The notes beneath the pieces are model-generated. The model did not search any database. It had not been told where the DNA came from and saw only the letters and a list, made by a program, of their open reading frames with translations. The position numbers were made by a program, and so were the translations under genes. A DNA stretch of 64,000 bases, from contig NZ_JAPKNH010000005.1 of assembly GCF_026344005.1 (NCBI RefSeq), positions 124,001-188,000 of the forward strand, read 5' to 3'. Position 1 is the first letter of the stretch. The number at the start of each line of letters is the position of its first letter. Of the stretch, positions 29,464-46,429 are shown in pieces. This DNA comes from Kaistia terrae (GTDB lineage: Bacteria > Pseudomonadota > Alphaproteobacteria > Rhizobiales > Kaistiaceae).

Positions 29464-29587
29464 GGAGTGCGAGGAAAGCGTCGCGGCCGGCCGTTCATAT
29501 CCATGTTGCCCCTAGGTGAAGGAGCGCTTCCGCCGCGGTTGCGCGACTGCTAGGCTCACGCGGAAAACGACTGCCGGGGAGGCACAC

Positions 29588-30364
29588 GTGCAGGCTGCGT
29601 TCGGGCTGTCCTATGAGACAACGGTGGCGCTCCTGACCTTTCTTTGCCTCAGCGCCGCATCGCTGGGCACCCTCTTGGTTTATGACCGCCTGCCGGCGCA
29701 CCATCGCGATGACAAGACCCTCGACACGGTCCGGCTCGTCGCCAACATCTTCGTCATGCTGAGTTCGCTGGTGCTTGGCCTCATGGTCAGTTCAGCAAGC
29801 AGCAATTTCGCGGAGGTCGACAAGGCGGTCCATGCCTACGCGACCGAAATCATCCTGCTCGACAGAGCCTTGCGCGGCCTTGGTCCCGACGGCGATCCGG
29901 CCCGGGCCGAACTCCTAAGCTATGTCACGGTTATCGTGGGTTCACGCGGTGTCGAGAGGCCCGCATTGCCCGCCGAAAACAAGTCTGCGGAGGCGACACT
30001 TCGCGACATCGGCGTTAAGCTGGCGGCGCTCCGGCCGAGCGACCCGGAGATGATATCGGGGCGCGAGCAGGCGAAGGCGCAGGTCAACACGCTGTTGCGC
30101 TCCCGTTGGGGACTCGTCGATCGAACGGAAGGCTCCGTCCCCTTTCCATTGGTCGTGTCGCTGGTTCTTTGGCTCAGCATGACGATGGCAAGCTTCGGCT
30201 ATCGCGCCCCGAAGAACGCGGTCGTGATGACCAGCTTCGTCGTTGCATCCATGTTGCTAGCCGGAGCGATCCTCCTGATCCTCGACATGGCCAAGCCGTT
30301 CGATGGTCCCATCCAGGCCTCGTCAGAACCCTTCATTCGCGCGCTCGCCGAACTGAAACTTTAG
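29588..30364 (+). CDS. DUF4239 (bestrophin-like) membrane protein
   Basis: A 258-residue inner-membrane protein with a TM segment at each end of the N-terminal region (TVALLTFLCLSAASLGTLLV and LVANIFVMLSSLVLGLMVSS). A soluble stretch of about 110 residues follows (VHAYATEIILLDRALRGLGP), then two TM segments (PFPLVVSLVLWLSMTMASFG and VVMTSFVVASMLLAGAILLI). Arrangement and length fit DUF4239. I chose GTG, which follows GGGGAGG; a longer frame begins at 29516. Function is unknown. It is monocistronic, upstream of the signalling block. Confidence 0.72.
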   Translation: MQAAFGLSYETTVALLTFLCLSAASLGTLLVYDRLPAHHRDDKTLDTVRLVANIFVMLSSLVLGLMVSSASSNFAEVDKAVHAYATEIILLDRALRGLGPDGDPARAELLSYVTVIVGSRGVERPALPAENKSAEATLRDIGVKLAALRPSDPEMISGREQAKAQVNTLLRSRWGLVDRTEGSVPFPLVVSLVLWLSMTMASFGYRAPKNAVVMTSFVVASMLLAGAILLILDMAKPFDGPIQASSEPFIRALAELKL

Positions 30365-30636: not shown

Positions 30637-32808
30637 ATGCCCAAGATAGTCATTGTCGACGACAGCTCGACCAATCAGCGCATCTATTCGAAGCTGGCGA
30701 GGCAGCTGGAGTCGGATCCGGACATCCGTACGTTCGGAAATCCTCGGAAGGCGCTTGAGTGGCTGGCCGAGAACACGGTTGATCTGATCATCACCGACTA
30801 CAAGATGCCCGCGATGTCAGGCGCGGCTCTCGCTGCGGCCATCCGGGAGGATGCCCGCAACTGGGACGTCCCGGTCATCGTCATCACGGCTTATAGTGAT
30901 CAGGAGTTTAGGGTCACCGCGCTCGAGGCTGGCGCGACGGATTTCCTGCTCAGCCCGGTGGACCATGTCGAATTCCTGGCGCGAGCCAAGAATCTCCTGA
31001 AGCTCCGGGCCCAGCAACTGCTCATCGCCAAGCGGGCAGACCAGCTGGAGTCGAACCTGAACATCAAGGAGCAACTGCTGCGGGAAAGCCGCGAGGCGCT
31101 GGCCCAGGTCATCGACACGGTCCCGGCCATGATCAATGCTACCGACCGCGATGGACGTTGCGTCTTCGTCAACGCCCATCAGGCCGCCTTTTTCGGCAAG
31201 GTACCTGGGGACCTGGTCGGCCAGCCCATCGAGGCGCTTCTGGGCGAGGAGCGGGCTCATATCAGCCGTCGGCTCGACCAACTGGTGCTCAAGACGGGTC
31301 GCTCGATCTCTTCCCGCCAGGAGGATGTCTGGGCACCCAATGGCGAGCATCGGATCTACCTGACGAGCAAGGCTCCGCTCTATGATGGGATGGGAGAGAT
31401 CGCGAGCGTTCTCTCGACATCGATCGACATCACCGAGCAGCGCCACGCCGAGCGACGCCTGCTTCATATCGTCAACCATGATCCGCTCACCGGCCTGCCG
31501 AACCGCCTGATGCTGCGCGACCATTTGCGGCGCGAACTGGCGCGCGGCCGGCGCGGCGACCAGAATTTTGCCCTGCATTTCATCGATCTCGACCGCTTCA
31601 AGGCCGTCAATGATGCGCACGGCCATCACCGGGGTGACGAACTGCTGCAGCGTGTCGCCGAAGCGCTGACGGAACTGGTCGGTGACAACCACACCGTGGC
31701 GCGACTTGGCGGTGACGAATTCGCCATTCTTCAGCCCGACATCGACGGGCCGGATGATGCCGGTCGTCTGGCCCAGTCGATTCTCGATTTGCTCAATAGC
31801 GAAGAAAACAGTCCGCTTTCCCTCAACATCGGCGCCAGCATCGGCGTCACCCTGGCCCCCCTCGACGGGACGGACCCGGACGAACTGCTGAAGAATTCGG
31901 ATCAGGCGATGTATCTCGCCAAATCCCTGGGCGGCGGCACATGGCGCTTCTTCGCGGCTGATATGCGCCCGCGCGCATCCCAGACGGCGCACCTCGAAAC
32001 CGAGCTGCGCGGCGCGCTTTCGCGTCGGGAATTCGTGCTCCACTACCAGCCGCAGATCGATCTGCGCACCCAGAAGGTCGTCGGCGTCGAGGCGCTATTG
32101 CGCTGGCAGCACCCGCAGCGCGGTCTGCTGGCCCCCGGCTCCTTCCTGGGACTAGCAGAGGAGACGGGCCTGATCCTGCCCATCAACGAATGGGTCCTGA
32201 ACGAGGCCTGCCGCCAGGGCGCGGCCTGGGAGGCCTCCGGCCTTGGCGACCTGCGCGTCGCGGTCAACATGTCGCCCATCCAGTTCAAGCGTCAGGGCGT
32301 GGAAAGCCTGGTCAAGGATGCCCTGCGGGCCAGCGGCATGCGGCCAACCTCGCTGGAGCTGGAACTGACGGAAGGCATTCTGCTCGGCCATGACGAGCAG
32401 ATCGTCAAGCAGATGAATGTGCTGCGGTCGCTCGGCGTCACCCTGTCGGTGGACGATTTCGGTACCGGCTATTCCTCGCTCAGCTATCTGCGCAGCTTCC
32501 CACTGCACCGGCTGAAGATCGATCGTTCCTTCGTGCAGGATTTGGGAAGCGATCCCAGCGCGCTGGCGATCGTGCGGACCATTATCGACCTCGGCCATAT
32601 CCTGCATCTCCAGGTCCTCGCCGAAGGTGTCGAGGCAGAGCACCAGCTTTCGCTTCTGCGCCTCGAGGGGTGTGACGAGGTGCAGGGGTACTATTTCAGC
32701 CGGCCGATCCCGGCCGATGCATTCGCCGTCTGGATGATGCAGTATGTCAGCGTAAACTCCGGGCCCGCGCCGGGCTCGACGGAGAATGAGCATGCGAGCG
32801 CCGGCTAG
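30637..32808 (+). CDS. Response regulator REC-PAS-GGDEF-EAL (cyclic-di-GMP output of a DSF-type system)
   Basis: A 723-residue cytoplasmic protein with four domains. Residues 1-125 are a receiver: acidic VDDSS, phospho-acceptor Asp54 in IITDYKMPAMSG, and a conserved ITAY segment. Its wording (FGNPRKALEWL, EAGATDFLLSP, LLKLRAQQ) recalls the receiver of RpfG. A short coiled linker leads to a PAS domain (about 150-275). The GGDEF domain follows, with intact active site RLGGDEFAI (about 356-364). The EAL domain has GVEALLRWQHP, LTEGILL, DDFGTGYSSLSYLRS, KIDRSFV and AEGVE, so both diguanylate cyclase and phosphodiesterase residues are kept. The RpfC-like sensor gene overlaps its 3' end, which marks it as the cognate output. 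A PAS-GGDEF-EAL protein is the DSF receptor RpfR in Burkholderia; here a receiver is added. Confidence 0.88.
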   Translation: MPKIVIVDDSSTNQRIYSKLARQLESDPDIRTFGNPRKALEWLAENTVDLIITDYKMPAMSGAALAAAIREDARNWDVPVIVITAYSDQEFRVTALEAGATDFLLSPVDHVEFLARAKNLLKLRAQQLLIAKRADQLESNLNIKEQLLRESREALAQVIDTVPAMINATDRDGRCVFVNAHQAAFFGKVPGDLVGQPIEALLGEERAHISRRLDQLVLKTGRSISSRQEDVWAPNGEHRIYLTSKAPLYDGMGEIASVLSTSIDITEQRHAERRLLHIVNHDPLTGLPNRLMLRDHLRRELARGRRGDQNFALHFIDLDRFKAVNDAHGHHRGDELLQRVAEALTELVGDNHTVARLGGDEFAILQPDIDGPDDAGRLAQSILDLLNSEENSPLSLNIGASIGVTLAPLDGTDPDELLKNSDQAMYLAKSLGGGTWRFFAADMRPRASQTAHLETELRGALSRREFVLHYQPQIDLRTQKVVGVEALLRWQHPQRGLLAPGSFLGLAEETGLILPINEWVLNEACRQGAAWEASGLGDLRVAVNMSPIQFKRQGVESLVKDALRASGMRPTSLELELTEGILLGHDEQIVKQMNVLRSLGVTLSVDDFGTGYSSLSYLRSFPLHRLKIDRSFVQDLGSDPSALAIVRTIIDLGHILHLQVLAEGVEAEHQLSLLRLEGCDEVQGYYFSRPIPADAFAVWMMQYVSVNSGPAPGSTENEHASAG

Positions 32809-35299
32809 GGTGCTCCAGGCGTTGGCCGCACCGTTCCGCTGGATGGCTGCACGATTGCGGGGCCGACCTGACAGCGAGCACGAGATGAGCTTTAACCGGC
32901 TCGTCTTCGCCATCATCATCGTCATCGTGCTGCTCGTAAACCGCAGCAGCGATGCCATGGATTATTCCCTGGACGTGATGGCGCTTTACTTCTTCCTGGC
33001 GTTGGGCGTGCTTGGACATATCCTGCTGTATCCGGGCAGTTCGCGCGGCAGGCGCATCTTCGCGCTGTTGATGGATTGCGGCTTTCTCTCCTGGCAATTG
33101 CATCTGGGCGGTGGCGTCGCCGCGCTTTTCTTCCCAATCTACCTCTGGGTCATCTTCGGTAACGGCTTCCGGTTCGGCCTGACCTCGCTCGCCATCGCCA
33201 TCCCTGTCGCGACCGTCTGTTTCGGCGTCGTGGTCCTGACGACGCCGTTCTGGTTCGAGCGCTGGCATCTCTCTGTCGGATTGCTCGGAGGGCTCGTCAT
33301 CCTGCCCGCCTATGCCGGCACGCTGATCCGCAAGCTCTCGCTGGCGACCCAGGCCGCCGAGGAGGCCAGCCAGGCCAAGAGCCTGTTCCTCGCGAGTGTC
33401 AGCCACGAACTGCGCACGCCGCTTACCGCTATCGTCGGCATGACGGGGCTGCTTCGCGGCACGCCGCTCGGCGCCGAGCAGCGCGATATGGTCGAGACGG
33501 TGGATGTCGCGACCCGCTCGCTCCAGTCGCTGATCAACAGTCTTCTCGACCTCTCCCGTATCGAGGCGGGGCGCATGCCGGTGTCGAACGGAGCGGTCGA
33601 CCTGCTTGCGCTGCTCGTCGATGCGCGCCGACTGGTCGAAAGCCAGGTGCGCGAACGGGGGCTGACTTTCGGCATCTACGTCACGCCGCGCACGCCGCTG
33701 CACCTCTTCGGCAGCCGGCAGCACCTGCACGAGATCCTGGTCAATCTGGTCGGCAACGCCGTGAAGTTCACGCGCGAGGGCGGCGTGAGCATCGCGGTCG
33801 ACGGCCACCTGGAGGAGGACGGCAGCCTTCGTCTGATCATGGAGGTCACCGATACCGGCATCGGCATCGCGCCGAAGGACCAGGAGCGCATCTTCGAGGA
33901 CTTCACCCAGGCCAATTCCAGCATCATGAACCGCTTTGGCGGCACCGGCCTTGGGCTGGCCATCGCGCGGCGACTGGTGGAACTGCTGGGCGGTTCGATC
34001 TCGGTGGAAAGCGTGCTGGGTGAAGGCAGTACCTTCCGCTTCGACATCGCCGCCTTGCCGCTGCTGGATGAACAGCCATTGGCGGACGAGTCATGGCGCG
34101 AGCGCGGTGTCGTGCTGGTCTGCCGGGATCCCGCACCGCTGGCGGGACTGGTGAGCACACTTTCCTCGCTCGGCGTGACGCCCCTGATCGCCGATCCGCG
34201 CCTTGGGCCGGCGCGCATGTTCCCCTCGCAGGCCGCCAGCGCCGTTCGCCTGCTGTTCGATCCCGATAGCCAGAACCTGCCGCTGGCGTCCACCGGCGCA
34301 AGCGGGTCCTCGTCGAAAGTCGTTGTGATCCAGCCGCAGGCTGACCCAACGCTGCCTGGTATCGCGATCCGGCAGCGTTGCGTCAGCCTGCTTTCGGAAC
34401 ACCCGACGGAGGCGGAACTGCGCGGCGCCTTGACCATCGCCTGCCGGCTGGCCGCGCCTGCGCTATCGCTCGCCCAACCCGCGACACCGCGTCCGGTTCG
34501 GCCGAGCCGGCCCCGCCGGATCCTGCTGGCGGACGACAATCGCATCAACCAGCGCGTCTTCTCCCGTATCCTGGAGGCGGCGGGTCACTCCGTCGTGCTG
34601 GCGGAGACGGGAGATCAGGCGCTCGACCTGCTGGAGGAAAGGGCGGATCGGCTCGACATCGTGCTGATGGACTTCAACATGCCCGACACGGACGGGCTCG
34701 AAGCCACCAAGCTCTACCGCATGATGGCCACGGGCGACCGCCGGCTTCCGATTGTCGGTCTGACGGCCGACGCCACCGCCATGAACGACAATCGCTGGCG
34801 CGAGGCCGGCATGGATGACTGCCTGATCAAGCCGGTAGAACCCGCCGCGCTGCTCGCTGCCATCGACAGGATCGCTGGTGACGGGCCCGACAAATTCGTT
34901 CCTGGCGAAGCGCCGCGGCTCACCCTGGTTCGTACGACAGCTCTTCCCAGCTTGGACGAAAAGGCGACGGAGAGACTGCAGAGGCTCGGCAGCGCGGAAT
35001 TCGTGCGCGAACTGATGGAGGATTATCTCGCCGACGCCGAGATCATTCTCGACAGCTTGGTCAAAAGTGTTGCCCGCGGCGACCTGGAGTCCTTCCGCAG
35101 TGAAGACCATGCGTTGCAGAGCAGCTCGGCAAACATCGGCGCTCTCGCTCTCGGCAGCATTTGCGCGCCCTGGAGAGGGCTGCGCGGCGAAGAACTGCAA
35201 GCTGGCGCCGAAGAATTCACGCGGCTGGCCAGGGCGGAGCTGAGGCGGACGCAGAAAGCCATGCGCGTCTATTCGGCGCGCGAGGCTGGTCTGGGGTAA
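32786..35299 (+). CDS. RpfC-like hybrid sensor histidine kinase (DSF receptor candidate)
   Basis: An inner-membrane hybrid kinase of about 835 residues. The N-terminal ~180 residues hold several TM helices (FAIIIVIVLLV, ALYFFLALGVLGHILL, PVATVCFGVVVL). The HisKA domain carries His207 in ASVSHELRTPLTAIVG, followed by an HATPase with LHEILVNLVGNAVKFT, DTGIGIAPKDQ and GGTGLGLAIARRL. A receiver has ILLADDNRINQ and the phospho-Asp in VLMDFNMPDTDG. The C-terminus is an Hpt domain with its His in EDHALQSSSANIGAL. This TM-HK-REC-Hpt order is that of RpfC. It overlaps the upstream regulator by about 20 bases; the ATG at 32792, seven bases after GGAGA, may be the true start. It ends in a convergent hairpin shared with the rpfF-like gene. 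Confidence 0.88.
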   Translation: MSMRAPARVLQALAAPFRWMAARLRGRPDSEHEMSFNRLVFAIIIVIVLLVNRSSDAMDYSLDVMALYFFLALGVLGHILLYPGSSRGRRIFALLMDCGFLSWQLHLGGGVAALFFPIYLWVIFGNGFRFGLTSLAIAIPVATVCFGVVVLTTPFWFERWHLSVGLLGGLVILPAYAGTLIRKLSLATQAAEEASQAKSLFLASVSHELRTPLTAIVGMTGLLRGTPLGAEQRDMVETVDVATRSLQSLINSLLDLSRIEAGRMPVSNGAVDLLALLVDARRLVESQVRERGLTFGIYVTPRTPLHLFGSRQHLHEILVNLVGNAVKFTREGGVSIAVDGHLEEDGSLRLIMEVTDTGIGIAPKDQERIFEDFTQANSSIMNRFGGTGLGLAIARRLVELLGGSISVESVLGEGSTFRFDIAALPLLDEQPLADESWRERGVVLVCRDPAPLAGLVSTLSSLGVTPLIADPRLGPARMFPSQAASAVRLLFDPDSQNLPLASTGASGSSSKVVVIQPQADPTLPGIAIRQRCVSLLSEHPTEAELRGALTIACRLAAPALSLAQPATPRPVRPSRPRRILLADDNRINQRVFSRILEAAGHSVVLAETGDQALDLLEERADRLDIVLMDFNMPDTDGLEATKLYRMMATGDRRLPIVGLTADATAMNDNRWREAGMDDCLIKPVEPAALLAAIDRIAGDGPDKFVPGEAPRLTLVRTTALPSLDEKATERLQRLGSAEFVRELMEDYLADAEIILDSLVKSVARGDLESFRSEDHALQSSSANIGALALGSICAPWRGLRGEELQAGAEEFTRLARAELRRTQKAMRVYSAREAGLG

Positions 35300-35311
35300 C
35301 CGAAGACGGCT

Positions 35312-35337
35312 GGCGATGCGCCCGGGGGCGCATCGCC
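35312..35337. terminator. Bidirectional hairpin between rpfC-like and rpfF-like genes
   Basis: The inverted repeat GGCGATGCGCCC / GGGCGCATCGCC sits midway in the 46-base gap between the two convergent genes. U-tracts are weak on both sides. Confidence 0.6.
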
Positions 35338-35345
35338 AATCGGAC

Positions 35346-36314
35346 CTACTCGGCAGCCACGAGCGCGGGCATGCTGGTGTGCAGGTTTGCGAGGCGGCGG
35401 TTCTGAGCCGAGCAGAGCCTGTCCATCTTCCGAAGGTCGGCTTCCGTCAGGTTCAGCGCCGCTTCCGCCCAGATGTCGACGACGTCGATGAGTTCGTCGA
35501 GGGTAACCGGGTTGACGCGCCGGCGAGCCTTGTAGAGGGCCTGATGCGCGTTGTGCTTGCGGTTGTGACGCGCAATGTAGTCGAGCACGGCCGCCTGGCC
35601 CTGGCCGTCCTCGGCCAGCACATCCACCACACCCATCTCATACAGTTCTTCGGCGGTATGGACACGGCCCGACAGGATCAGCGCTTCGGCCTTGTCGCGC
35701 GACATACGCCGCGACAAGAAGCTGTAGGCGCCCATTCCGGGGAACATGTTGAACAGGATTTCGGGCAGGCCCATCTTCGCGCTGCGTTCGGCGACGATCA
35801 GGTCGAACGACAGAGCGTGCTCGAAGCCACCGCCCAGAGCATCGCCCTGCACCAGCGCCATGGTCACGACCGGCGCGTCGAATGCCACCGCATTGCGGTG
35901 AATGGCCTCGACGGCGACATGGCCGTAGTGGCGCATGGCCTTCAGATCACGACTGCGAATGCGCTGCGCGAAATGGCCGAGATCGCCGCCCAGATTGTAG
36001 ATGCCGGGTACGGCGGAAGCCATGACGAACCAGGAGAAGGGCTTGGCGGTCGGATCGGGCAGGTTCGCGAAGGTCTGGGTGATGGCCGTCTGCATCCGGC
36101 TGATGTCCTGCATCAGCTCGTGCGTATAGGAGGGCTTGCCGACTGGATCCATGTAGCACCAGCAGGTTGCGTTGAGCGTATCGATATCGAGATGAAGGTT
36201 ATCATAGCCGATATCGTTGATCGCCCTGGCCGCAGCGGCCATTGCAAGGCTGCTAGGGCCGGGGTTCAGGCTGTTGATTGCAACGGGATCATTATTCATA
36301 CGAACTGAAGTCAT
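35346..36314 (-). CDS. rpfF: RpfF-like enoyl-CoA hydratase/thioesterase, DSF synthase candidate
   Basis: A 322-residue crotonase-fold enzyme. In Xanthomonas and Burkholderia RpfF makes cis-2-unsaturated fatty-acid signals from acyl-ACP using two glutamates 20 residues apart. Both are present here: Glu165 in GDALGGGFEHALSFD and Glu185 in MGLPEILFNMFPGMGAYSFL. The oxyanion region WFVMASAVPGIYNLGGDL fits too. The protein is somewhat longer than Xanthomonas RpfF (about 290), mainly at the N-terminus. A GGAGAAACAAG ribosome-binding site precedes the ATG. The gene is convergent with the RpfC-like kinase, as in Xanthomonas. The assignment rests on motifs plus context, and the product has not been shown. 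Confidence 0.85.
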   Translation of the reverse strand: MTSVRMNNDPVAINSLNPGPSSLAMAAAARAINDIGYDNLHLDIDTLNATCWCYMDPVGKPSYTHELMQDISRMQTAITQTFANLPDPTAKPFSWFVMASAVPGIYNLGGDLGHFAQRIRSRDLKAMRHYGHVAVEAIHRNAVAFDAPVVTMALVQGDALGGGFEHALSFDLIVAERSAKMGLPEILFNMFPGMGAYSFLSRRMSRDKAEALILSGRVHTAEELYEMGVVDVLAEDGQGQAAVLDYIARHNRKHNAHQALYKARRRVNPVTLDELIDVVDIWAEAALNLTEADLRKMDRLCSAQNRRLANLHTSMPALVAAE

Positions 36315-38422: not shown

Positions 38423-39187
38423 CTAGGCGGCGGGTGGATCGAGAAGGTCGCCCAGCAGGCTGAGGGTGTTGCGCAGCGAGGTGTCGAGATGCACCCGCAT
38501 CGCTTCCATCGCCTGCTGCTCGTCCTTCGCCGCAAGCGCCGCCAGGATAGCCTGATGCTGGGCGATGGTTGTCTCGCCAGATCCGGGCTTTGGCAGCGCC
38601 ATGTAGCGACCGCGATCCATCTGTGCCTTGGAGATATCCACGGCGCGCCAGAGCATGGAGAGGTTGTTGATCTCGGCGATGTAGCGATGGAACTGGTCGT
38701 CGAGGCGGATGGCGTCGGTGTAGCGCTTCCGGCCTATCGCCGTCTGGTGCTGGCCGACAATGTCTTCCAACTGCTCGAGATGGAACGCACTGATCTGCGT
38801 CGCGGCGCGGCGGACACTTTCGACTTCGAGCGCGTTGCGGATGATGTAGGCCTCTTCCAGCGCGGCGCGCGAGATCGCCGCGACGAAGGTGCCCGTCTGC
38901 GCATAGACGTTGATCAGCCCCTCATCGCTCAGTCGCTTGACCGCCTCGCGAACCGGCGTGCGCGAGACACCGAGTTGCTCGGCAATCTCGACCTCGTTGA
39001 CGGACTGGCCTGGCCGTAACTGACCGATGATGATCAGCGTGCGGACGATCTGATAGATCTGGTCGCGCAGGGGCGACTTACGGTCGAGGTTGACCAGCTG
39101 CAATTGCAGTAATGCCGCTTCGGCCACCCGCTCAGACCCTCCCACCAAAATCGCCGGCGCCAGCTCGACTGAGCCGGGTCCGCGCAT
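38423..39187 (-). CDS. GntR-family (FCD) regulator of the rare-sugar locus
   Basis: A regulator of up to 254 residues. The winged helix reads LRDQIYQIVRTLIIIGQLRP, GQSVNEVEIAEQLGVSRTPV, REAVKRLSDEGLINVYAQTG. An FCD-type helical domain follows, with metal/ligand candidates Asp and His in RLDDQFHRYIAEINN, AQHQAILAALAAKDEQQAME and RVHLDTSL. The first ~30 residues are poorly conserved-looking and the true start may be later. It is divergent from the isomerase/ABC importer operon. A 13-base motif, ACTAATATAACAG, occurs once before each of the two divergent genes and is its probable operator. Confidence 0.87.
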   Translation of the reverse strand: MRGPGSVELAPAILVGGSERVAEAALLQLQLVNLDRKSPLRDQIYQIVRTLIIIGQLRPGQSVNEVEIAEQLGVSRTPVREAVKRLSDEGLINVYAQTGTFVAAISRAALEEAYIIRNALEVESVRRAATQISAFHLEQLEDIVGQHQTAIGRKRYTDAIRLDDQFHRYIAEINNLSMLWRAVDISKAQMDRGRYMALPKPGSGETTIAQHQAILAALAAKDEQQAMEAMRVHLDTSLRNTLSLLGDLLDPPAA

Positions 39188-39235
39188 CAGGCCGGACCGC
39201 GCCGCTTGCGCGGCCGAACGACCCAGCTTGCGTTA

Positions 39236-39248
39236 CTGTTATATTAGT
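39236..39248 (-). promoter_or_regulatory. Operator/promoter element copy 1 (facing the GntR gene)
   Basis: On the minus strand this reads ACTAATATAACAG, about 50 bases upstream of the GntR start. The same 13 bases recur facing the sugar operon. TAATAT could also serve as a -10 box. Autoregulation by the GntR protein is inferred. Confidence 0.5.
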
Positions 39249-39435
39249 CTGGTGCATCGTCGCAAGCGGAGCCGCCTTGGGTGGTGCGTGCCGGCAGCCC
39301 CGAGCCTTTCCGGTTGAGCGTGCAAGAAGTTGATCGTTATCAACGATATGGCAGATAAAACCATACTACAATATTCAAGAATTAAATCTTCGACTGCGTG
39401 CCCAACCGGGCGTTGAAGCCTGCTTGACACGTTAC

Positions 39436-39448
39436 ACTAATATAACAG
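39436..39448 (+). promoter_or_regulatory. Operator/promoter element copy 2 (facing the sugar operon)
   Basis: The same ACTAATATAACAG as copy 1, now on the plus strand, a few bases after TTGACA. It overlaps a small palindrome GTTA-N8-TAAC (39431-39446). It is a candidate GntR operator controlling the isomerase/ABC operon. Confidence 0.5.
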
Positions 39449-39651
39449 AGAGTGCCGTTGCGTTCCGGTCAATAGAGGTAGCGGCCGGGGCGCGCAGGGG
39501 AGGAGACCCTCGCAATGTGGTGCAATCTGAACGGAGTCCGGTGGGACTGCCGGCGGTGGAGTGCGCCTGTACAGCGAGTGTGTTGCTTCCCCGGCATGCA
39601 GGAAGGGCCGTCGCCGTACAGAAGGCGAGTCCGATAGGGAGGAAGAGCACC

Positions 39652-40704
39652 ATGGCGGATCCGAACAACTATCCGAAGCTGCACAACGCCGCGTGGCCCG
39701 GCGTCGTCGGCAAGGGCGGGGAGGGCGGCGATCCGATCGTCCCGCTGGATACCCTGTTGGAGCTGACCTCCAAGGCGGAAGTCGACGGACAGAAGTTCGA
39801 CGGCATCGATCTCTGGCTTGCCGATCCGCATCTGTCGATCGATAGCGACCGCGATCAGGTCAAGCGCATGGTCGACCACATTGCTAGCTACGGCCTCAAG
39901 GTCGGCTCGTTCGTGGCGCCGATCTGGGGTGGCGCCGGGGGCGGTTCCGCCATGGGCTCGGCCGACGATCGCAAGCGTTTCGTCTCGCAGGTCCGCAAGG
40001 CTGCCGCGATTGGTGAGCAGATGCGCGAATTCGGCATTCGCCCGACCGGCGGCATCCGCATCGATTCCTCGACGGGCGTTGCCGATTGGGACAAGGATCC
40101 CGTCGGCAACACCAAGATCATCGCCGAAACGTTCCGCGAGGCCGGCAAGGCGGCGCAGGATCACGGCGAGTTCCTCGTCGCCGAGGGCGAGATTTGCTGG
40201 GGCGGCATGCAGTCCTGGCGCGAGAATGTCCGCCTGCTCGAAGAGGTCGGCATGCCCGGCATCGTCGGCTACCAGGCCGACATGGCGCATTCGATGCTGT
40301 TCACGCTCGGCTACAACGCCGAGCAGGACCGCCTGCTTCCCGAGGGCTATGACTGGCAGGATCGCGCGGTCCTCGACGCGGCCTACAAAAAGGTCGCCGA
40401 CGCGCTGCGTCCGTGGACCTACGATTTCCACGTCGCCCAGAACGACGGCACCGTCTTCGGCTCCGGCGACCACGAGAAGACTGGCCGCCACGTTCAGGTC
40501 ACCGATCCGAACGGCAAGCTCGATGTCACCAAGCATGCCGGCTACTGGCTGCGCGACGACGCGGGCAACCTCACCAAGAAGATGCGCCACATCGCCTGGG
40601 ACGGCTGCATGTTCCCCAATTCCGTGATGACGGCGCAGCAGACCTGGAACGACGTTCTGGGCGCGATGATCAAGGTGCGCGACGCCCATGGCTGGCGCGA
40701 ATAA
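39652..40704 (+). CDS. Xylose-isomerase-like TIM-barrel sugar isomerase
   Basis: A 350-residue protein of the AP-endonuclease-2/xylose isomerase-like superfamily. Recognisable elements are the early FDGIDLWLADPHLS, SYGLKVGSFVAPIWGGAGGG, FLVAEGEICWGGMQSW (Glu ligand candidate), IVGYQADMAHSMLF (Asp/His) and YDFHVAQNDGTVFGSGDH (His). It is longer than the smaller 3-epimerase-type paralogues at 4613 and 45533. The ATG has a strong GGGAGGAAG. It opens an operon with a dehydrogenase, ABC importer, second isomerase, dehydratase and mutarotase, so it probably acts on the imported sugar or a derivative. Confidence 0.82.
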   Translation: MADPNNYPKLHNAAWPGVVGKGGEGGDPIVPLDTLLELTSKAEVDGQKFDGIDLWLADPHLSIDSDRDQVKRMVDHIASYGLKVGSFVAPIWGGAGGGSAMGSADDRKRFVSQVRKAAAIGEQMREFGIRPTGGIRIDSSTGVADWDKDPVGNTKIIAETFREAGKAAQDHGEFLVAEGEICWGGMQSWRENVRLLEEVGMPGIVGYQADMAHSMLFTLGYNAEQDRLLPEGYDWQDRAVLDAAYKKVADALRPWTYDFHVAQNDGTVFGSGDHEKTGRHVQVTDPNGKLDVTKHAGYWLRDDAGNLTKKMRHIAWDGCMFPNSVMTAQQTWNDVLGAMIKVRDAHGWRE

Positions 40705-40725
40705 CGGTTTCAGGGATCCATCCAA

Positions 40726-41868
40726 ATGACCAAGAAAAAGCTGAACATCGGTCTGGTCGGCGCCGGCTTCATGGGCCGCACCCATTCCAACGCCTTCCGT
40801 CAGGTTGGCCAGTTCTTCAACAGCGAGTATGAGCCCGTTCTGAAGGCGATCGCCACGCGCAACGCCAAGGGCGCCGCCGATTTCGCCGAGAACTGGGGCT
40901 ATGAAAGCTCCGAGAGCGACTGGCGCAAGCTGATCGAGCGCAAAGATATCGACCTGATCGATATCGCCAGCCCGAACGACACCCATGCCGAGATCGCCAT
41001 CGCGGCGGCCCAGGCCGGCAAGATGGTGATGTGCGAGAAGCCGCTCGGCCGCAACGCCGCCGAGGCCGAGAAAATGGTCGCGGCCGTCGAGGCGGCCGGC
41101 GTCGCCAACATGGTCTGGTATAATTATCGCCGCGTGCCGGCGGTGACGCTCGCCAAGCAGATGATCGAGGAGGGCCGGCTCGGCCGCATCTTCCACTATC
41201 GCGCCAAGTTCCTGCAGGACTGGACGATCTCGGCCGACGTGCCGCAGGGCGGCATGGGCACCTGGCGTCTCGATGCCAGCGTCGCCGGCAGCGGCGTCAC
41301 CGGCGATCTGCTGGCGCATTGCATCGATACCGCGCTCTGGCTGAATGGCGGCATCGACAGCGTCACGGCGGCGACGGAAACCTTCGTCAAGCAGCGCGCG
41401 CATGCGGTCAGCGGCAAGGTCGAAGAGGTCAAGATCGACGACGCCAGCGCCTTCCTTGCCCGTTTCCAGAATGGCTCGCTCGCGACCTTCGAGGCGACCC
41501 GCTACGCCCGTGGCCACAAGGCACTCTATACGCTGGAGATCAATGGCGAGAAGGGCTCCATCGCCTGGGACCTGCACGACCTGCACCGGCTGTCCTACTT
41601 CGACTACAGCGACGAGGGGCATCTGCGCGGCTGGCGCTCGATCCACATCACCGATGGTGACCACCCCTATATGAGCCAGTGGTGGGTGCCCGGGCTGCAG
41701 ATCGGCTACGAGCATTCCTTCATCCATCAGGCCGCCGATTTTCTTGCCGGTCTCGCTTCCGGCACGCCGGCCGCGCCGACTTTCCGCGAGGCGCTCCGTA
41801 CCGACTACGTCACCGACGCTGTGCTGGCCTCGGCGAAGTCGGGCCGCTGGGAAGCGGTTCAGGGCTGA
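40726..41868 (+). CDS. Gfo/Idh/MocA-family dehydrogenase
   Basis: A 380-residue NAD(P)-dependent oxidoreductase acting on sugars, inositols or related polyols. The Rossmann motif is [12 protein letters not shown] (about 8-19), followed by [20 protein letters not shown] and the catalytic [15 protein letters not shown]. The C-terminal domain shows [19 protein letters not shown] and [20 protein letters not shown], with candidate catalytic Asp and His. It lies 21 bases after the isomerase gene and 14 before the ATPase gene. It likely oxidises the imported sugar at a ring carbon or C1. Confidence 0.9.
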
Positions 41869-41882
41869 GTGGCGGATCTGCA

Positions 41883-43403
41883 ATGACCCTCGATACCCCG
41901 CTCGCAATCCAGGTACAGGGCGTGACCAAGAGCTTTCTTGGTCAGCGCGCCCTTGATGACGTCGACTTCGAGGTTGCGCGGGGCGAGGTCCATGGGCTGG
42001 TCGGCAAGAACGGCGCCGGCAAGTCGACCTTCATGAAGATCCTGTCGGGCGCGCAACCGCCCGACAGCGGCCAGATCATTGTCGGCGGCACCGCGTTCAA
42101 GGCGCTCAATCCGGCCGAAGGGCGCGCCGCTGGCATCGCCATCGTCTACCAGAATCCGGAACTGCATCTGGATCTCTCGGTCGCGGCCAATATCTTCCTC
42201 GGCGCCGAACCCCGCAAAGGTTTTGGCATTCTCGACGACAAGGCAATGGCGGCGCGGGCGAGCGAGCTTCTGGCCCGGCTCGGCCTCAATCTGCCGGTCA
42301 ACCAGCGGCTCGGCGATCTCGACATTGCCGACCGTCAGCAGGTCGCCATCGCCAAGGCTGTGCGCGAGAAGGCGCATGTGCTGCTGCTTGACGAGCCGAC
42401 GGCGGCGCTCAACAAGGCGCAGGCCGAATTCCTGTTTCGGCTGATCCGCGATCTCGCCAGGCAGGGCATGGCGGTTGTCTATGTCTCGCATCACCTCGAC
42501 GAGGTGCTGGCGATCTCCGACCGTATCACCATCCTCCGCAACGGCCGCAAGGTCGCCGTGGTCGAAGGCAGGAGCGCTGACAAGGACGGGCTAATCTCGA
42601 TGATCGTCGGCCGCACGCTCGACGCGGTCGAGACGCATCGAAGCGAGCGCCCCAAATCGGAACCCTTCCTGGTGATGGACGCAGTGTCCAGCCCGGGCGG
42701 TCTCGACGATGTTTCGCTCACGGTCACCAAAGGCGAAATTGTCGGCGTCACCGGGTTGATCGGTGGCGGCGCCAACGCGCTCGCCGCCGTCATTGGTGGG
42801 CTCGACCATCGTCACGTGGCAGGCAGCATGTCGCTGGGCGGCCAGCCCTATGCGCCGCGCGCCGTCCGCGAGGCGATTGCTCGCGGCGTGCTGTTCATTC
42901 CCGAGGACATGCGTGGTCGCGGCCTGGTGATGAGTCTTTCCATCGCCAAGAACATCTCCCTCGCGGCCTTGAAATCGCTCTCGAATCTGGGCTGGCTGAA
43001 GCTCGCCAAGGAGACCGACGTCGCGACCGAGATGTCGGAGCGGCTGGATCTCAATCCGCGCGCGCCAGGCCGCGAAGTGCGGTTCCTGAGCGGTGGCAAC
43101 CAGCGCAAGGCACTGCTCGGCCGCGCCATCTTCGCCGATGGCCAACTCTTCGTGCTCGAGGAGCCGACGCAGGGCGTCGACGTCGAATCCCAGCGCCAGA
43201 TCCATGACCATCTGCGTGGCCTTGCCGCGAAGGGCGCGACCATCGTTTTCGTGTCGACCGACCTCGAAGAGCTGATCGCGCTGGCCGATCGAATCCTCGT
43301 CCTTCGGGATGGCCGCATCGAGCAGGAGTTGTCGCCGGATCGGCTCGATCCGCAGCAACTGCTCTCCGCCATCCAGACCCAAAGCACCCGGAGCGTGAAT
43401 TGA
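41883..43403 (+). CDS. Ribose-class sugar ABC importer, tandem ATPase subunit
   Basis: A 506-residue double ATPase of the RbsA/XylG type. Domain 1 has Walker A GKNGAGKST (residues 41-49), LDIADRQQVAIAKA and Walker B VLLLDEPTAALN. Domain 2 has a degenerate Walker A (GLIGGGANALA), signature LSGGNQRKALLGRAI and Walker B LFVLEEPTQGVD, in which Glu replaces the usual Asp. The start is the ATG just after the dehydrogenase stop. The stop overlaps the permease start (TGATG). It energises the importer of the rare-sugar operon. Confidence 0.9.
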   Translation: MTLDTPLAIQVQGVTKSFLGQRALDDVDFEVARGEVHGLVGKNGAGKSTFMKILSGAQPPDSGQIIVGGTAFKALNPAEGRAAGIAIVYQNPELHLDLSVAANIFLGAEPRKGFGILDDKAMAARASELLARLGLNLPVNQRLGDLDIADRQQVAIAKAVREKAHVLLLDEPTAALNKAQAEFLFRLIRDLARQGMAVVYVSHHLDEVLAISDRITILRNGRKVAVVEGRSADKDGLISMIVGRTLDAVETHRSERPKSEPFLVMDAVSSPGGLDDVSLTVTKGEIVGVTGLIGGGANALAAVIGGLDHRHVAGSMSLGGQPYAPRAVREAIARGVLFIPEDMRGRGLVMSLSIAKNISLAALKSLSNLGWLKLAKETDVATEMSERLDLNPRAPGREVRFLSGGNQRKALLGRAIFADGQLFVLEEPTQGVDVESQRQIHDHLRGLAAKGATIVFVSTDLEELIALADRILVLRDGRIEQELSPDRLDPQQLLSAIQTQSTRSVN

Positions 43404-44374
43404 TGTCTTCTCCCACCGCAACGGCAGGCAAGCCGGCGAACCGAAAGCTTGGCGGTCTTCAAGGACGGGATCTTGGCCGTTACACGCTCCTGATCGTACT
43501 GCTGCTGATCGTCGTGGTCACGGCCATTGGCAACCCGCGATTCCTTTCCGTCAACAACCTGATGAACATCCTGTTCCAGGTTTCGGCGCTTGGCATCGTC
43601 GCCTCAGGCCAGACCATTCTGTTGATCGCCGGCGGTCTGGACCTGTCGGTCGGCGCGGCGCTTTCGGTGGCCGGCCTCGCGACGGCCCTCACCATCATGC
43701 ATACCGGTTCGGTGGCGCTTGGCATTCTCGCCGGCGTGGTCGCCGGTTGCGTGATCGGCGCTATCAACGGCATGCTGGTCGCGACCAACCGCGCCACGCC
43801 CTTCATCATCACGCTCGGCACGATGACCTTCCTGCAAGGCGTCGCCATCCTGATGTCCGGCGGCAGCCCGATCAACGGCACCGGCGCGCTGTTCGACGTG
43901 TTCGGACTTGGCGATTTCCTCGGCGTGCCATGGCCGGTCTACGCCATGTTCGCATCGATCCTCGTCATGTTCGTGGTCCTGCGCTTCACGACGCTCGGCC
44001 GCTATGCCTTCGCCATCGGCGGCAATGAAGAAGCGGCGCGGCTTTCCGGCATCCCGGTCCGGCGTATCAAGATCGCGCTCTACGCGCTCAGCGGACTTTT
44101 CGTCGGCGTCGCCGGCGTCATCCTCACCGGCGTCCTCGATTCCGGCCTGCCCAGCATGGGCACGGGCTACGAGCTCCGCGCGATCGCGGCGGTGGTCATC
44201 GGCGGCACGCCGCTGATCGGCGGACGCGGAACGGTCATCGGCACGCTGGGCGGCGTCCTGCTGCTCGGGCTGGTGAGCAACAGCATGAACCTTCTCGGCG
44301 TCGGTGCGAATTTCCAGAGCGCCGTCCTGGGATTGATCATAACGGCGGCGGTCCTGCTGCAGAAAAAAGCCTAA
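43403..44374 (+). CDS. Ribose-class sugar ABC permease
   Basis: A 323-residue RbsC-type inner-membrane permease with about nine hydrophobic segments. Landmarks are IVASGQTILLIAGGLDLSVG, RATPFIITLGTMTFLQGVAI, IGGNEEAARLSGIPVRRIKI (ATPase-contact loop) and VVIGGTPLIGGRGTVIGT. It is the only permease in this operon, so a homodimeric channel is expected, unlike the importer at 7005-8971. Confidence 0.9.
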   Translation: MSSPTATAGKPANRKLGGLQGRDLGRYTLLIVLLLIVVVTAIGNPRFLSVNNLMNILFQVSALGIVASGQTILLIAGGLDLSVGAALSVAGLATALTIMHTGSVALGILAGVVAGCVIGAINGMLVATNRATPFIITLGTMTFLQGVAILMSGGSPINGTGALFDVFGLGDFLGVPWPVYAMFASILVMFVVLRFTTLGRYAFAIGGNEEAARLSGIPVRRIKIALYALSGLFVGVAGVILTGVLDSGLPSMGTGYELRAIAAVVIGGTPLIGGRGTVIGTLGGVLLLGLVSNSMNLLGVGANFQSAVLGLIITAAVLLQKKA

Positions 44375-44417
44375 CCGGCACGCCGCTTCAGGGACATTGC
44401 AACGGAGGAGACGAGCA

Positions 44418-45428
44418 ATGAATATCACGAGGAGAGCCCTCGCCGTACTGGCGCTGGGAGCGGCGGTCATCGCGCCGAGCCTGTCGCAGGCGGCGGAAAA
44501 GACCATCGCCTTCATGCGCGGCGGTCCGGACCCTTACTACCAGTTCGGCATGAACGCGGCCCAGGCCGCCGCCGACAAGCTCGGCGTCAAGCTGATCACC
44601 TATTCGGCCAATAACGATCCGACCCAGGAACTTGCCAACGTCCAGGACGCGATCACCAAGGGCGTCGACGGCATCCTGATCTACGCCGTGTCGCTGTCGT
44701 CGGAAAAGGCCGCCATCGCCCAGGCCAAGAAGGCCGGCGTGCCGATCTTCTTCCAGTATGGCTATGACGAGTCGATCCTGGCGGATTCGGCCGGCATCAT
44801 GCAGGTCGATCTCTACCGGTTCGGCGAGCCCGTCGGCGAGGCGATCGGCAAGCTGCTGCCGGAGGGCGAATACGCCACCATCACCGGCAAGCTCGGCCGC
44901 GGCGACGCGGAAGCCTTCGTGCAGTCGTTCAAGAACGGCATCGCCAAGTCCGGCTCCAAGGCCGTCAGCGTCGCCGACCTCGCCGCCGACTGGGACCGCC
45001 AGAAGGCCATGGATGCGGCCTCGCAGATCCTCGTGGCGCATCCGAACGTCAAGGCGATCTATGCCGCCAATGACGACATGGCCGTGGGTGTCGCGATCGC
45101 CATCGAGCGTGCCGGCAAGACCGGCCAGATCCTGATCGGCGGCAATAACGGCGCGCCCTATGGCGTCGAACTGATCGAGAAGGGCCAGATGACCCTGACC
45201 GGCAGCAACCCGCCCTCGATTGCCTCGGTCAATGCGCTGCGCCTGCTGCTCGGCGTCATCGATGGTTCGGTCAAGCCGGGCCAGTTCTACTACGCGCCGA
45301 GCCAGGTGATCACCAAGGACAATCTGGCTGATGCCGCCCCCTGGGACGCAAAGCCCGAGATGGTCAGCAAGTGGCTGGAAGAGCCGCTGCCGCAGGGTGC
45401 GGCTCCGCCGGTCCCGCCGACCAACTGA
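44418..45428 (+). CDS. Periplasmic sugar-binding protein
   Basis: A 336-residue Peripla_BP_4-type receptor with a signal peptide (MNITRRALAVLALGAAVIAPSLSQAA in two parts: basic ITRR, hydrophobic core, AxA site). The mature protein starts TIAFMRGGPDPYYQFGMNAA. It continues with DAITKGVDGILIYAVSL, GVPIFFQYGYDESI and VKAIYAANDDMAVGVAIAIE, the hallmark hinge-side region of ribose-type receptors. GGAGGAG precedes the ATG. A stable hairpin follows the stop. Confidence 0.9.
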   Translation: MNITRRALAVLALGAAVIAPSLSQAAEKTIAFMRGGPDPYYQFGMNAAQAAADKLGVKLITYSANNDPTQELANVQDAITKGVDGILIYAVSLSSEKAAIAQAKKAGVPIFFQYGYDESILADSAGIMQVDLYRFGEPVGEAIGKLLPEGEYATITGKLGRGDAEAFVQSFKNGIAKSGSKAVSVADLAADWDRQKAMDAASQILVAHPNVKAIYAANDDMAVGVAIAIERAGKTGQILIGGNNGAPYGVELIEKGQMTLTGSNPPSIASVNALRLLLGVIDGSVKPGQFYYAPSQVITKDNLADAAPWDAKPEMVSKWLEEPLPQGAAPPVPPTN

Positions 45429-45435
45429 TCGTCGC

Positions 45436-45472
45436 GGCCGGTGGACCAGACTTGGCCCACCGGCCTCTTCCG
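45436..45472 (+). terminator. Hairpin after the binding-protein gene
   Basis: The stem GGCCGGTGG / CCACCGGCC with a 12-base loop is followed by TCTTCC, eight bases past the stop. Downstream genes are probably still transcribed, so it may attenuate or stabilise rather than fully stop transcription. Confidence 0.55.
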
Positions 45473-45532
45473 ACGGCGCGGATGCGAACCGTCGCGCTGT
45501 TGGCCTGCATGACAAGAACCAGGAAGACCTCG

Positions 45533-46381
45533 ATGAAGATCGGCTTCAATCTCCTGCTCTGGACCGCGCATGTCGAACCGCGACACTGGCCGATCCTCGA
45601 GGATTTGAAACGTTGCGGCTATGACGGCGTCGAGATCCCGATCTTCGAAGGTACGCCGGATCACTACGCCGAGCTTGGTCGCGAACTTGACCGGCTCGGT
45701 CTCGACCGTACCGTGATTTCGCTGTTCCCAGCGACCGAGATGAATCCGCTCGGCGCCGAGGAAGCTCAGCAGGAAGCCGCGCGCCGCCACATGGCGTGGA
45801 TCCTCGATTGCTCGGCAGCGCTTGGCGCCAAGGTCGTTGGCGGCCCCCTGCATTCGACGCTTGGCCACTTTTCCGGCGATGCGCCGACCGCTGAAGAGCG
45901 TCAACGCGGCATCGCCTTTCACCGCGACGCCGGCGACATGGCCCGCGCCAGGGGCATTACGCTGGTGCTGGAGGCGGTCAACCGCTTCGAATGCTATTTC
46001 GTCAACACGATGCACGATCTGGCGAGCTATCTCGCCGAGGTCGCTCACCCGAATGTTGCTGGCATGTACGATACCTTCCACGCCAATATCGAAGAGAAGG
46101 ATCCGATTGCCGCCGTGGCCGCCATTGCGCCGCATCTGGCGCATGTGCATGTCTCGGAGAACGATCGCGGTACGCCCGGCAAGGGGCATATCGATTTCGC
46201 CAGTACCTTCAAGGCGTTGAAGCAGGCCGACTATGACGGCTGGATCACCATCGAGGCGTTCGGACGGTCGATGCCGCTGCTGGCGGCGGCGACGCGAATC
46301 TGGCGTGACCTCTTCCCCGCCGCCACCGAAGTCTACAGCGACGGCTTCACGCTCATCCGCGATGGCTGGCGTTCAGCCTGA
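45533..46381 (+). CDS. Sugar isomerase/epimerase, TIM barrel (ketose-3-epimerase-like), second copy
   Basis: A 282-residue paralogue of the enzyme at 4613-5491. It has the same putative metal ligands: Glu in EAVNRFECYF, Asp in MYDTFHANIEEKD, His in HVHVSENDRGTPGKG and Glu in TIEAFGRSMP. AGGAAG precedes the ATG. An upstream extension of the frame overlaps the binding-protein gene and is not needed. It lies inside the rare-sugar operon between the receptor and the dehydratase. Two isomerase families in one operon suggest at least two isomerisation steps, or action on two epimers. Confidence 0.85.
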   Translation: MKIGFNLLLWTAHVEPRHWPILEDLKRCGYDGVEIPIFEGTPDHYAELGRELDRLGLDRTVISLFPATEMNPLGAEEAQQEAARRHMAWILDCSAALGAKVVGGPLHSTLGHFSGDAPTAEERQRGIAFHRDAGDMARARGITLVLEAVNRFECYFVNTMHDLASYLAEVAHPNVAGMYDTFHANIEEKDPIAAVAAIAPHLAHVHVSENDRGTPGKGHIDFASTFKALKQADYDGWITIEAFGRSMPLLAAATRIWRDLFPAATEVYSDGFTLIRDGWRSA

Positions 46382-46429
46382 GACCCGCGCAACGGCGGCT
46401 GCCCACGTGGCCGCGATAGGATCGATACC

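Follow-up and report, generated by a model that had tools for sequence, protein, structure and literature searches.

Discussions of quorum sensing in Alphaproteobacteria mostly turn on homoserine lactones. Among receptors of diffusible signal factor (DSF), RpfR is a PAS-GGDEF-EAL protein that lacks a REC domain and binds RpfF through an N-terminal domain. In excerpts of the published accounts (articles are cited throughout by PubMed Central number, and from such excerpts), the core DSF receptor schemes are RpfC with RpfG, and RpfR, which binds the signal directly (PMC4504480). An rpf set outside pathogens, coupled to cyclic di-GMP (c-di-GMP), has been described from Leptospirillum (PMC8357829), and a KEGG-based survey lists RpfC-RpfG in alphaproteobacteria (PMC8895600). 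Neither an experimental alphaproteobacterial DSF system nor an RpfC-linked REC-PAS-GGDEF-EAL protein was found in the open-licence literature, as judged from titles and the starts of abstracts among the matches listed, with most subscription papers outside this scope. Here we describe three adjoining genes of the soil bacterium Kaistia terrae that very probably form a complete DSF-type signalling cassette, by which a fatty-acid signal would be made, sensed at the membrane and answered through c-di-GMP. They lie in a stretch of 64,000 nucleotides (contig NZ_JAPKNH010000005.1, positions 124,001 to 188,000; hereafter the window, in whose coordinates positions are given), within a genome of 5.59 Mb in 37 contigs.

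The three genes, for a response regulator, a hybrid kinase and a crotonase, fill positions 30637-36314 with the boundaries first noted (Table 1). An earlier note, made from the sequence alone, had proposed here a module of RpfF, RpfC and a c-di-GMP regulator, and had pointed to two glutamates of the crotonase, to a kinase of the order membrane input-HisKA-HATPase-REC-Hpt, to a regulator gene overlapping the kinase gene and to convergent rpfF- and rpfC-like genes. These details were borne out: E165 and E185 aligned without a gap to E141 and E161 of Xanthomonas RpfF, Pfam returned the domain order (with the Hpt marginal), the overlap measured 23 bases, and the crotonase gene was convergent with the kinase gene here as in 77 of 80 three-gene loci. 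The module itself was upheld as to its RpfF-type, RpfC-type and c-di-GMP domains, and had to be amended in that the regulator, having no HD-GYP, is not RpfG, and in that Gln22 of the RpfC sensor is replaced by Met.

Table 1. Features of the putative DSF-type cassette in the window.
Feature	Position	Strand	Basis
Response regulator REC-PAS-GGDEF-EAL, 723 aa; presumed output partner replacing RpfG	30637..32808	+	Pfam, motif positions, REC tree
Predicted RpfC-type hybrid kinase, 837 aa: membrane sensor, HisKA, HATPase, REC, Hpt	32786..35299	+	Pfam, motifs, kinase tree, sensor profile
N-terminal membrane sensor region, residues 1-196	32786..33373	+	AlphaFold model, Pfam search
Sensor motif codons R27-P-D29-S30-E31-H32-E-M34	32864..32887	+	Alignment to Xanthomonas RpfC R15-A-D17-S18-E19-H20-A21-Q22
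Predicted RpfF-type DSF synthase, 322 aa, catalytic pair E165/E185	35346..36314	-	NF006452, PDB 3m6m match, residues, fold, tree

As in the RpfF-RpfC-RpfG system of Xanthomonas, an RpfF-family synthase converges with an operon ending in an RpfC-type kinase, the sensor carries an R-x-D-S-E-H motif, the kinase has REC and Hpt domains, and a c-di-GMP output protein bears a related REC. Unlike in Xanthomonas, the output is REC-PAS-GGDEF-EAL rather than REC-HD-GYP, the sensor has Met for Gln22, and no rpfB- or rpfH-like gene was found among the immediate neighbours scanned in the window. The Leptospirillum rpfFCG cluster differs in being unidirectional and in having HD-GYP (PMC8357829). The Burkholderia diffusible signal factor (BDSF) system RpfF-RpfR (DfsA-RpfR) of Burkholderia and Cronobacter likewise has an RpfF-family synthase with a PAS-GGDEF-EAL protein nearby, whereas the PAS-GGDEF-EAL protein of the window starts with a REC and stands beside a membrane kinase. 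Read from its sequence, the window arrangement is a variant of the known DSF system in which an RpfG-like REC joins an RpfR-like output to an RpfC-type receptor. Elsewhere in the order to which Kaistia belongs, two genomes (G and L numbers are our handles for genomes and loci) resembled Burkholderia RpfF-RpfR, with an RpfF-family gene beside a REC-less PAS-GGDEF-EAL protein (G040, L160:7493-9820; G054, L161:3910-6195); an RpfC sensor profile had no match in either genome.

The crotonase scored 383 bits on NCBIfam NF006452 (PRK08788 family; cut-off 177), on which pieces of Xanthomonas and Cronobacter RpfF gave 396 and 360 bits; these calibration pieces were taken from PDB alignments, and partial sequences lose some score. 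Its best PDB sequence matches were RpfF 3m6m (expect value E = 2.4e-51), 7zq7, 6dgn and 5fus, followed by human AUH at 9e-15, and 102 of the 245 residues aligned to 3m6m were identical. All 11 residues to which excerpts of PMC9864630 and PMC9040811 assign a catalytic or pocket role in Xanthomonas RpfF were kept (G85, G86, L136, G137, G138, E141, E161, G169, M170, W258 and L276 in Xanthomonas numbering; the chain-to-paper offset of 16 was set in this analysis, and all 11 letters agree with it). In a PDB fold search with the AlphaFold model (mean predicted local distance difference test, pLDDT, 87), ranks 1-12 were all RpfF-family chains (E 4e-24 to 1e-20; template modelling (TM) score on target 0.91-0.94), and hydratases followed from E 2e-14. 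Pseudomonas DspI came no higher than rank 22, which sets the crotonase beside RpfF and DfsA and apart from DspI. The nearest named relatives of the protein are from Kaistia granuli, K. defluvii, K. soli and K. adipata, with 90 to 87% identity. On these sequence and fold comparisons the crotonase is an RpfF-type DSF synthase, with a cis-2-unsaturated fatty acid as its predicted product.

Pfam placed the kinase domains, behind a hydrophobic input region, at residues 197-262 (HisKA), 311-421 (HATPase), 579-693 (REC) and 742-813 (Hpt), with H207, D629 and H775 as the presumed relay residues. In the alanine scan of X. campestris RpfC by Cai and colleagues, as excerpted, the membrane-adjacent residues R15, D17, S18, E19 and Q22 were needed for DSF sensing, R15K and S18T being tolerated and Q22E and Q22N not (PMC5391125). 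The window kinase has R27, D29, S30 and E31 at the first four of these places. The same places were compared in 88 receptors, four of them without a regulator seen and the others sorted by the output of the neighbouring regulator (see below). HisKA-linked receptors (n = 20) had R, D, E and Ser/Thr in 20/20 and Gln at the Gln22 place in 18/20; EAL-linked receptors (n = 53, one gapped at the Gln22 place) had R in 45, D in 49, Ser/Thr in 45 and E in 52; HD-GYP-linked receptors (n = 11) had R in 2, D in 5, Ser in 5, E in 11 and Q in 11. In this sample, alphaproteobacterial receptors therefore retain the Xanthomonas motif more fully than HD-GYP-linked ones, except at Gln22. By domain order and motif the kinase is an RpfC-type receptor, for which DSF binding and autophosphorylation are predicted. 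Besides its first receptor, genome G114 carried a second hybrid kinase (782 aa, L145:10142-12487) that matched the RpfC sensor more weakly; the two kinases lie on opposite sides of rpfF.

The sensor region itself matched no Pfam family at E≤1, its model had no Foldseek match at E≤0.001, and a profile search of PDB sequences returned one chance-like match (E = 0.65). Very weak fold likeness to membrane adenylyl cyclases was seen (AC8, TM 0.56 on query, E = 1.6; Rv1625c, 0.31, E = 0.29). The AlphaFold model of residues 18-196 (32837-33373; pLDDT 90) folds into six long helices, the first of which begins with the motif. Mean net charge over 44 rows was positive at the N terminus (+1.9), in loop 2-3 (+0.8), in helix 4 with its end (+1.0) and at the C terminus (+1.1), and negative in loops 1-2, 3-4 and 5-6 (-0.25, -0.8 and -0.4); the alternation is weaker in the window sensor, where loop 1-2 has +1 and the C-terminal stretch 0. 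A simple hydropathy scan gave five segments, and helix 3 is weakly hydrophobic (mean 0.68). Model and charge pattern suggest six membrane helices, an N terminus inside the cell and a cytoplasmic R-x-D-S-E-H motif, whereas the published RpfC scheme, as excerpted, has five helices and a putatively periplasmic N terminus (PMC5391125).

A motif placed on the cytoplasmic side would also suit a unit that monitors the cell's own membrane or fatty-acid synthesis and not population density. Free acids of the DSF kind, however, are taken to cross membranes. The substrates of RpfF are cytoplasmic acyl-acyl carrier proteins (acyl-ACPs; PMC9864630), in keeping with such self-monitoring, but added DSF stimulates Xanthomonas RpfC through the same motif (PMC5391125), and we consider self-monitoring improbable.

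Linkage of the genes was examined at the level of loci and of genomes. A scan of GTDB genomes gave 171 synthase relatives, of which 80 were kept, and an RpfC-type gene lay in the stretch examined for 62 of the 80. Among the remainder, the stretch was cut by a contig end on the kinase side in L024, L037, L044, L058, L077 and L079 and broken in the assembly in L059; no RpfC-type gene was found in L038, L051 and L074, though sequence was present there. A gammaproteobacterial group (L062, L064, L065, L069, L071, L072, L075 and L080) had RpfF with no RpfC seen, at least 2 kb lying beyond the synthase in five of the eight; in seven of the eight a GGDEF-EAL match stood about 3 kb upstream, that of L062 being GGDEF and EAL without REC (Pfam). 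The complete trio was detected in 80 of 118 loci (three of the 118 duplicate others), and in 77 of these 80 the regulator and kinase genes lay on one strand with the synthase gene convergent, so that the arrangement is not due to chance; the synthase runs in the same direction in L040 and L041, and the regulator is on the opposite strand in L132.

The synthase family and a profile of the sensor region (A1) were then sought in 101 relatives and in an even sample of 385 Alphaproteobacteria, two sets that overlap (e.g., G000); in the latter, at most six synthase or eight sensor candidates were scored per genome. The 101 relatives held the synthase in 17, the sensor in 15 and both in 15, always on the same contig within 4 kb (15/15; Fisher p = 5e-16, ignoring relatedness). 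The 385 Alphaproteobacteria held the synthase in 24, the sensor in 24 and both in 22 (p = 2e-31, again ignoring relatedness), with the synthase without the sensor in G382 and G244 and the sensor without the synthase in G145 and G415. In 17 of these 22 genomes the two lay on one contig within 4 kb, in four on separate contigs, and in one they were 4.3 Mb apart. In that genome (G447) the RpfF gene adjoins a REC-PAS-HisKA_2 protein (L164:7849-9384), the RpfC-type gene being the distant one.

The crotonase fold and an ECH_1 match in Pfam would also be expected of an ordinary enzyme of fatty-acid catabolism standing beside the kinase by chance. In the synthase tree (117 rows), however, five catabolic crotonases, four from the window genome and AUH, split off with full support (Shimodaira-Hasegawa-like approximate likelihood ratio test, SH-aLRT, 100), and the four PDB RpfFs fell among the other 112 rows; this and the other trees are single quick searches with SH-aLRT support only, and long branches were flagged by the program. 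Together with the fold ranking, the eleven kept residues and the linkage in both genome samples, the tree rejects a chance catabolic neighbour, to which we attach a negligible probability. Neither of the two outcomes that the earlier note had named as speaking against its proposal was seen: the crotonase stood apart from the catabolic hydratases tried, and the neighbourhood was conserved in relatives, in both the orientation of the loci and the linkage within genomes. The note's description of a complete, self-contained unit in an alphaproteobacterium gains support from gene content, synteny and linkage.

When 17 genes of the window were sought in nine related loci, the three genes of the unit were the only ones present in 9/9. 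Among the 14 flanking genes, the K. granuli locus (L006) has four and the K. defluvii locus (L007) three, at 83-98% identity and with distance, side or orientation changed, and the other seven loci have none beyond weak matches of 30-39%. Being absent or displaced across the nine loci, the flanking genes were rejected as parts of the unit. The synthase exceeded the cut-off in 10/14 Kaistia genomes, 0/14 others of the family and 7/73 others of the order, and the cassette is accordingly patchy among Kaistia and its family. In the synthase tree (SH-aLRT 98) and in the receptor tree (100), Kaistia and Ancylobacter group with Acidocella and not with other Hyphomicrobiales. This pattern fits a spread of the cassette by horizontal transfer.

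The regulator matched REC (81 bits, residues 4-116), PAS_4 (62), GGDEF (145) and EAL (244) in Pfam, and its motifs include TDYKMP starting at 53, in which D54 is the presumed phospho-acceptor, RLGGDEF at 356-362 (GGDEF 358-362) and EALLR at 485-489. D54 and GGDEF were invariant in 49 aligned regulators, and E485, N544, E576, E579, D606, D607, K627, E663 and Q683 were at least 90% conserved. An assignment to RpfG was rejected, as the REC is present but there is no HD domain and PAS-GGDEF-EAL stands in place of HD-GYP; an assignment to RpfR was rejected because of the REC.

Of 90 loci that hold an RpfC-type gene, 86 showed a regulator bearing the matching REC, with REC-HD-GYP in 11, REC and GGDEF-EAL in 54 and REC with a HisKA-type kinase in 21, counts that precede removal of three duplicates; in the other four, of which two lie at a contig end, no such regulator was seen. 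The type of output was assigned from phmmer matches and motifs, and Pfam was run on 5 of the 11 HD-GYP proteins, seven of the REC-HisKA type and two REC-PAS-GGDEF-EAL proteins, that of the window included; HD-GYP-type domains were found in 5/5 scanned and REC-PAS-HisKA in 6/6 scanned rpf loci. The REC-HD-GYP loci were labelled gamma-, beta- or zetaproteobacterial (Methylobacillus, one such label, we take to be a betaproteobacterium). The even sample contained 24 sensor-positive genomes: 19 had the HisKA kind, four, including the window genome, the EAL kind, and one had no regulator beside the receptor. All five sensor-positive relatives outside Kaistia had an EAL-kind output.

In a tree of REC domains (134 rows), the 86 rpf-locus RECs, with all three output types, formed one clade (SH-aLRT 95), set apart from 15 RpfC RECs and from 33 other RECs of the window genome; the latter were drawn from 30 of 50 places with the module's two set aside, and REC-HD-GYP proteins from outside rpf loci were left out of the tree. 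On the receptor tree (88 rows), the output types require 4 changes, compared with a mean of 28 for shuffled labels, and HD-GYP occupies one side of a branch (99). Three EAL rows lie among HisKA rows and two HisKA rows within the EAL branch, so that for either of these two types the well-supported branches require no fewer than two changes. The GGDEF-EAL outputs themselves formed one clade in 50 of 54 cases (96), with four of sphingomonads falling apart from it. The simplest reading of these trees is one inherited RpfC-REC pair whose outputs were replaced, with some later exchange.

The sequences show which genes are present, how their domains are ordered, that catalytic and sensing residues are conserved, that the genes are linked and that the RECs are kin, all of which speaks for a complete DSF-type cassette; several observations weigh against it. 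First, the crotonase reached 209 bits on the narrow RpfF equivalog NF053515, short of its cut-off of 550; the calibration pieces of Xanthomonas and Cronobacter RpfF also stayed below it (523 and 176 bits), and from the score comparison the crotonase fits NF006452 as well as the Cronobacter enzyme does, while NF053515 suits the Xanthomonas type. Second, the characterised synthases stand on long branches (1.68 and 2.65) in the RpfF tree, which makes their exact place unsure. Third, the Hpt of the kinase is marginal (24.0 bits against a Pfam cut-off of 24.6, E = 4.7e-5), that of the gammaproteobacterial relative L085 having 46.6 bits. Fourth, the REC clade is partly a product of selection, since the regulators were picked by a REC match, although a matching REC was there to be picked in 86 of the 90 loci. 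Fifth, M34 occupies the place of Gln22, for which reason we write RpfC-type and not RpfC proper. Sixth, the GGDEF domain is intact as well as the EAL, so that net synthesis of c-di-GMP is possible.

The fifth point could mean that the synthase makes a different, related lipid (of another chain length, or a 3-hydroxy or trans acid), with a receptor tuned to that ligand and, in consequence, without Gln22. Of the 52 EAL-linked receptors ungapped at this place, 48 have Met, compared with the Gln of most HisKA-linked (18/20) and all HD-GYP-linked (11/11) receptors, and Xanthomonas RpfC senses less well when Gln22 is replaced by Ala, Glu or Asn (PMC5391125, section 8). On the side of the synthase, however, neither the catalytic pair nor any of the 11 named residues is changed, and a tie between Met and the EAL output is weakened by the EAL-linked L146, L151 and L152, which have Gln, and by the HisKA-linked L132 and L148, which have Met. 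Met or Gln here tracks receptor lineage, by the sequences compared, more than output type, and the Met may therefore be neutral; a different lipid is possible but doubtful.

For the DSF-type cassette we propose that the crotonase would release a cis-2-unsaturated fatty acid from an acyl-ACP intermediate and that the acid would reach the RpfC-type kinase, where it may be sensed with the help of the R-x-D-S-E-H motif that begins the first membrane helix. The kinase would autophosphorylate at H207 and pass the phosphate through D629 and H775 to the REC of the neighbouring regulator, the whole relay, like product and ligand binding, being predicted. Phosphorylation of this REC would alter the GGDEF-EAL output, most probably by turning on c-di-GMP hydrolysis by the EAL domain, so that c-di-GMP falls; in the Xanthomonas system the same hydrolysis is carried out by the unrelated HD-GYP of RpfG. 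If the kinase behaves like RpfC (PMC9864630), its REC may in addition keep the synthase inactive while cell density is low.

That hydrolysis should dominate over synthesis is itself a prediction, and with the same cassette the phosphorylated REC could instead stimulate the GGDEF domain, the signal then raising c-di-GMP and favouring attachment over dispersal. The intact RLGGDEF and its invariance in the 49 regulators would allow this, and culture fluid of Kaistia sp. 32K is reported to promote, and not to disperse, biofilm of a Methylobacterium (PMC7563137), an effect in which the cassette might have a part. Against it, the EAL signature residues are conserved in the same 49 regulators, the three best NCBIfam matches of the regulator are named phosphodiesterases (all below their cut-offs), and the outputs that it replaces, the HD-GYP of RpfG and the EAL of RpfR, are described as phosphodiesterases in the excerpts of PMC4504480 and PMC8357829. 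We rate a signal that raises c-di-GMP as rather unlikely.

An AHL (acyl-homoserine lactone) synthase (PF00765) was present in 1/14 Kaistia genomes, G005 (C7:80490-81014), which lacks the DSF synthase, and one system may replace the other in Kaistia. No AHL synthase was found in K. granuli, K. defluvii, K. soli and K. adipata in a search whose controls were silent too, the same model having matched in the 14-genome Kaistia search. According to Usui and colleagues, as excerpted, Methylobacterium biofilm increases with culture fluid of Kaistia sp. 32K through a factor not identified there, for which they suppose AHLs; a motility effect of 32K they had earlier ascribed to an exopolysaccharide, and K. 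adipata culture fluid raised the motility of M. radiotolerans (PMC7563137). As K. adipata carries the cassette (L009) and no AHL synthase was found in it, a DSF-type acid is a candidate, and not more, for the biofilm factor.

Around the unit, a bestrophin-like membrane protein is encoded just upstream (29516-30364). Of the 14 Kaistia genomes, two have the M15 gene and 11 a relative of the bestrophin-like gene, and these stand beside the unit in the window genome alone. Positions 38423-47983 hold an apparent set for sugar-acid catabolism, with a GntR-FCD regulator, an ATP-binding cassette (ABC) transporter ATPase and a galactarate/altronate dehydratase.

Taken more broadly, DSF signalling may be a module with exchangeable outputs, in which one RpfF, one RpfC-type receptor and one lineage of partner REC are joined to HD-GYP in gamma-, beta- and zetaproteobacteria, to a histidine kinase in 19 of the 24 receptor-bearing alphaproteobacteria of the even sample, and to PAS-GGDEF-EAL in Kaistia, Ancylobacter, Acetobacteraceae and others. 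In Alphaproteobacteria the trio would move as a cassette, with no AHL synthase found beside it in the cassette-bearing Kaistia genomes, and its receptor may have six helices and a cytoplasmic motif, contrary to the five-helix periplasmic model. We regard the chances for and against this composite picture as evenly balanced. The cassette would extend fatty-acid quorum sensing to alphaproteobacteria of soil and water, and these loci offer a natural series in which receptor and synthase stay constant while the output enzyme varies, through which it can be asked what a DSF receptor must do.

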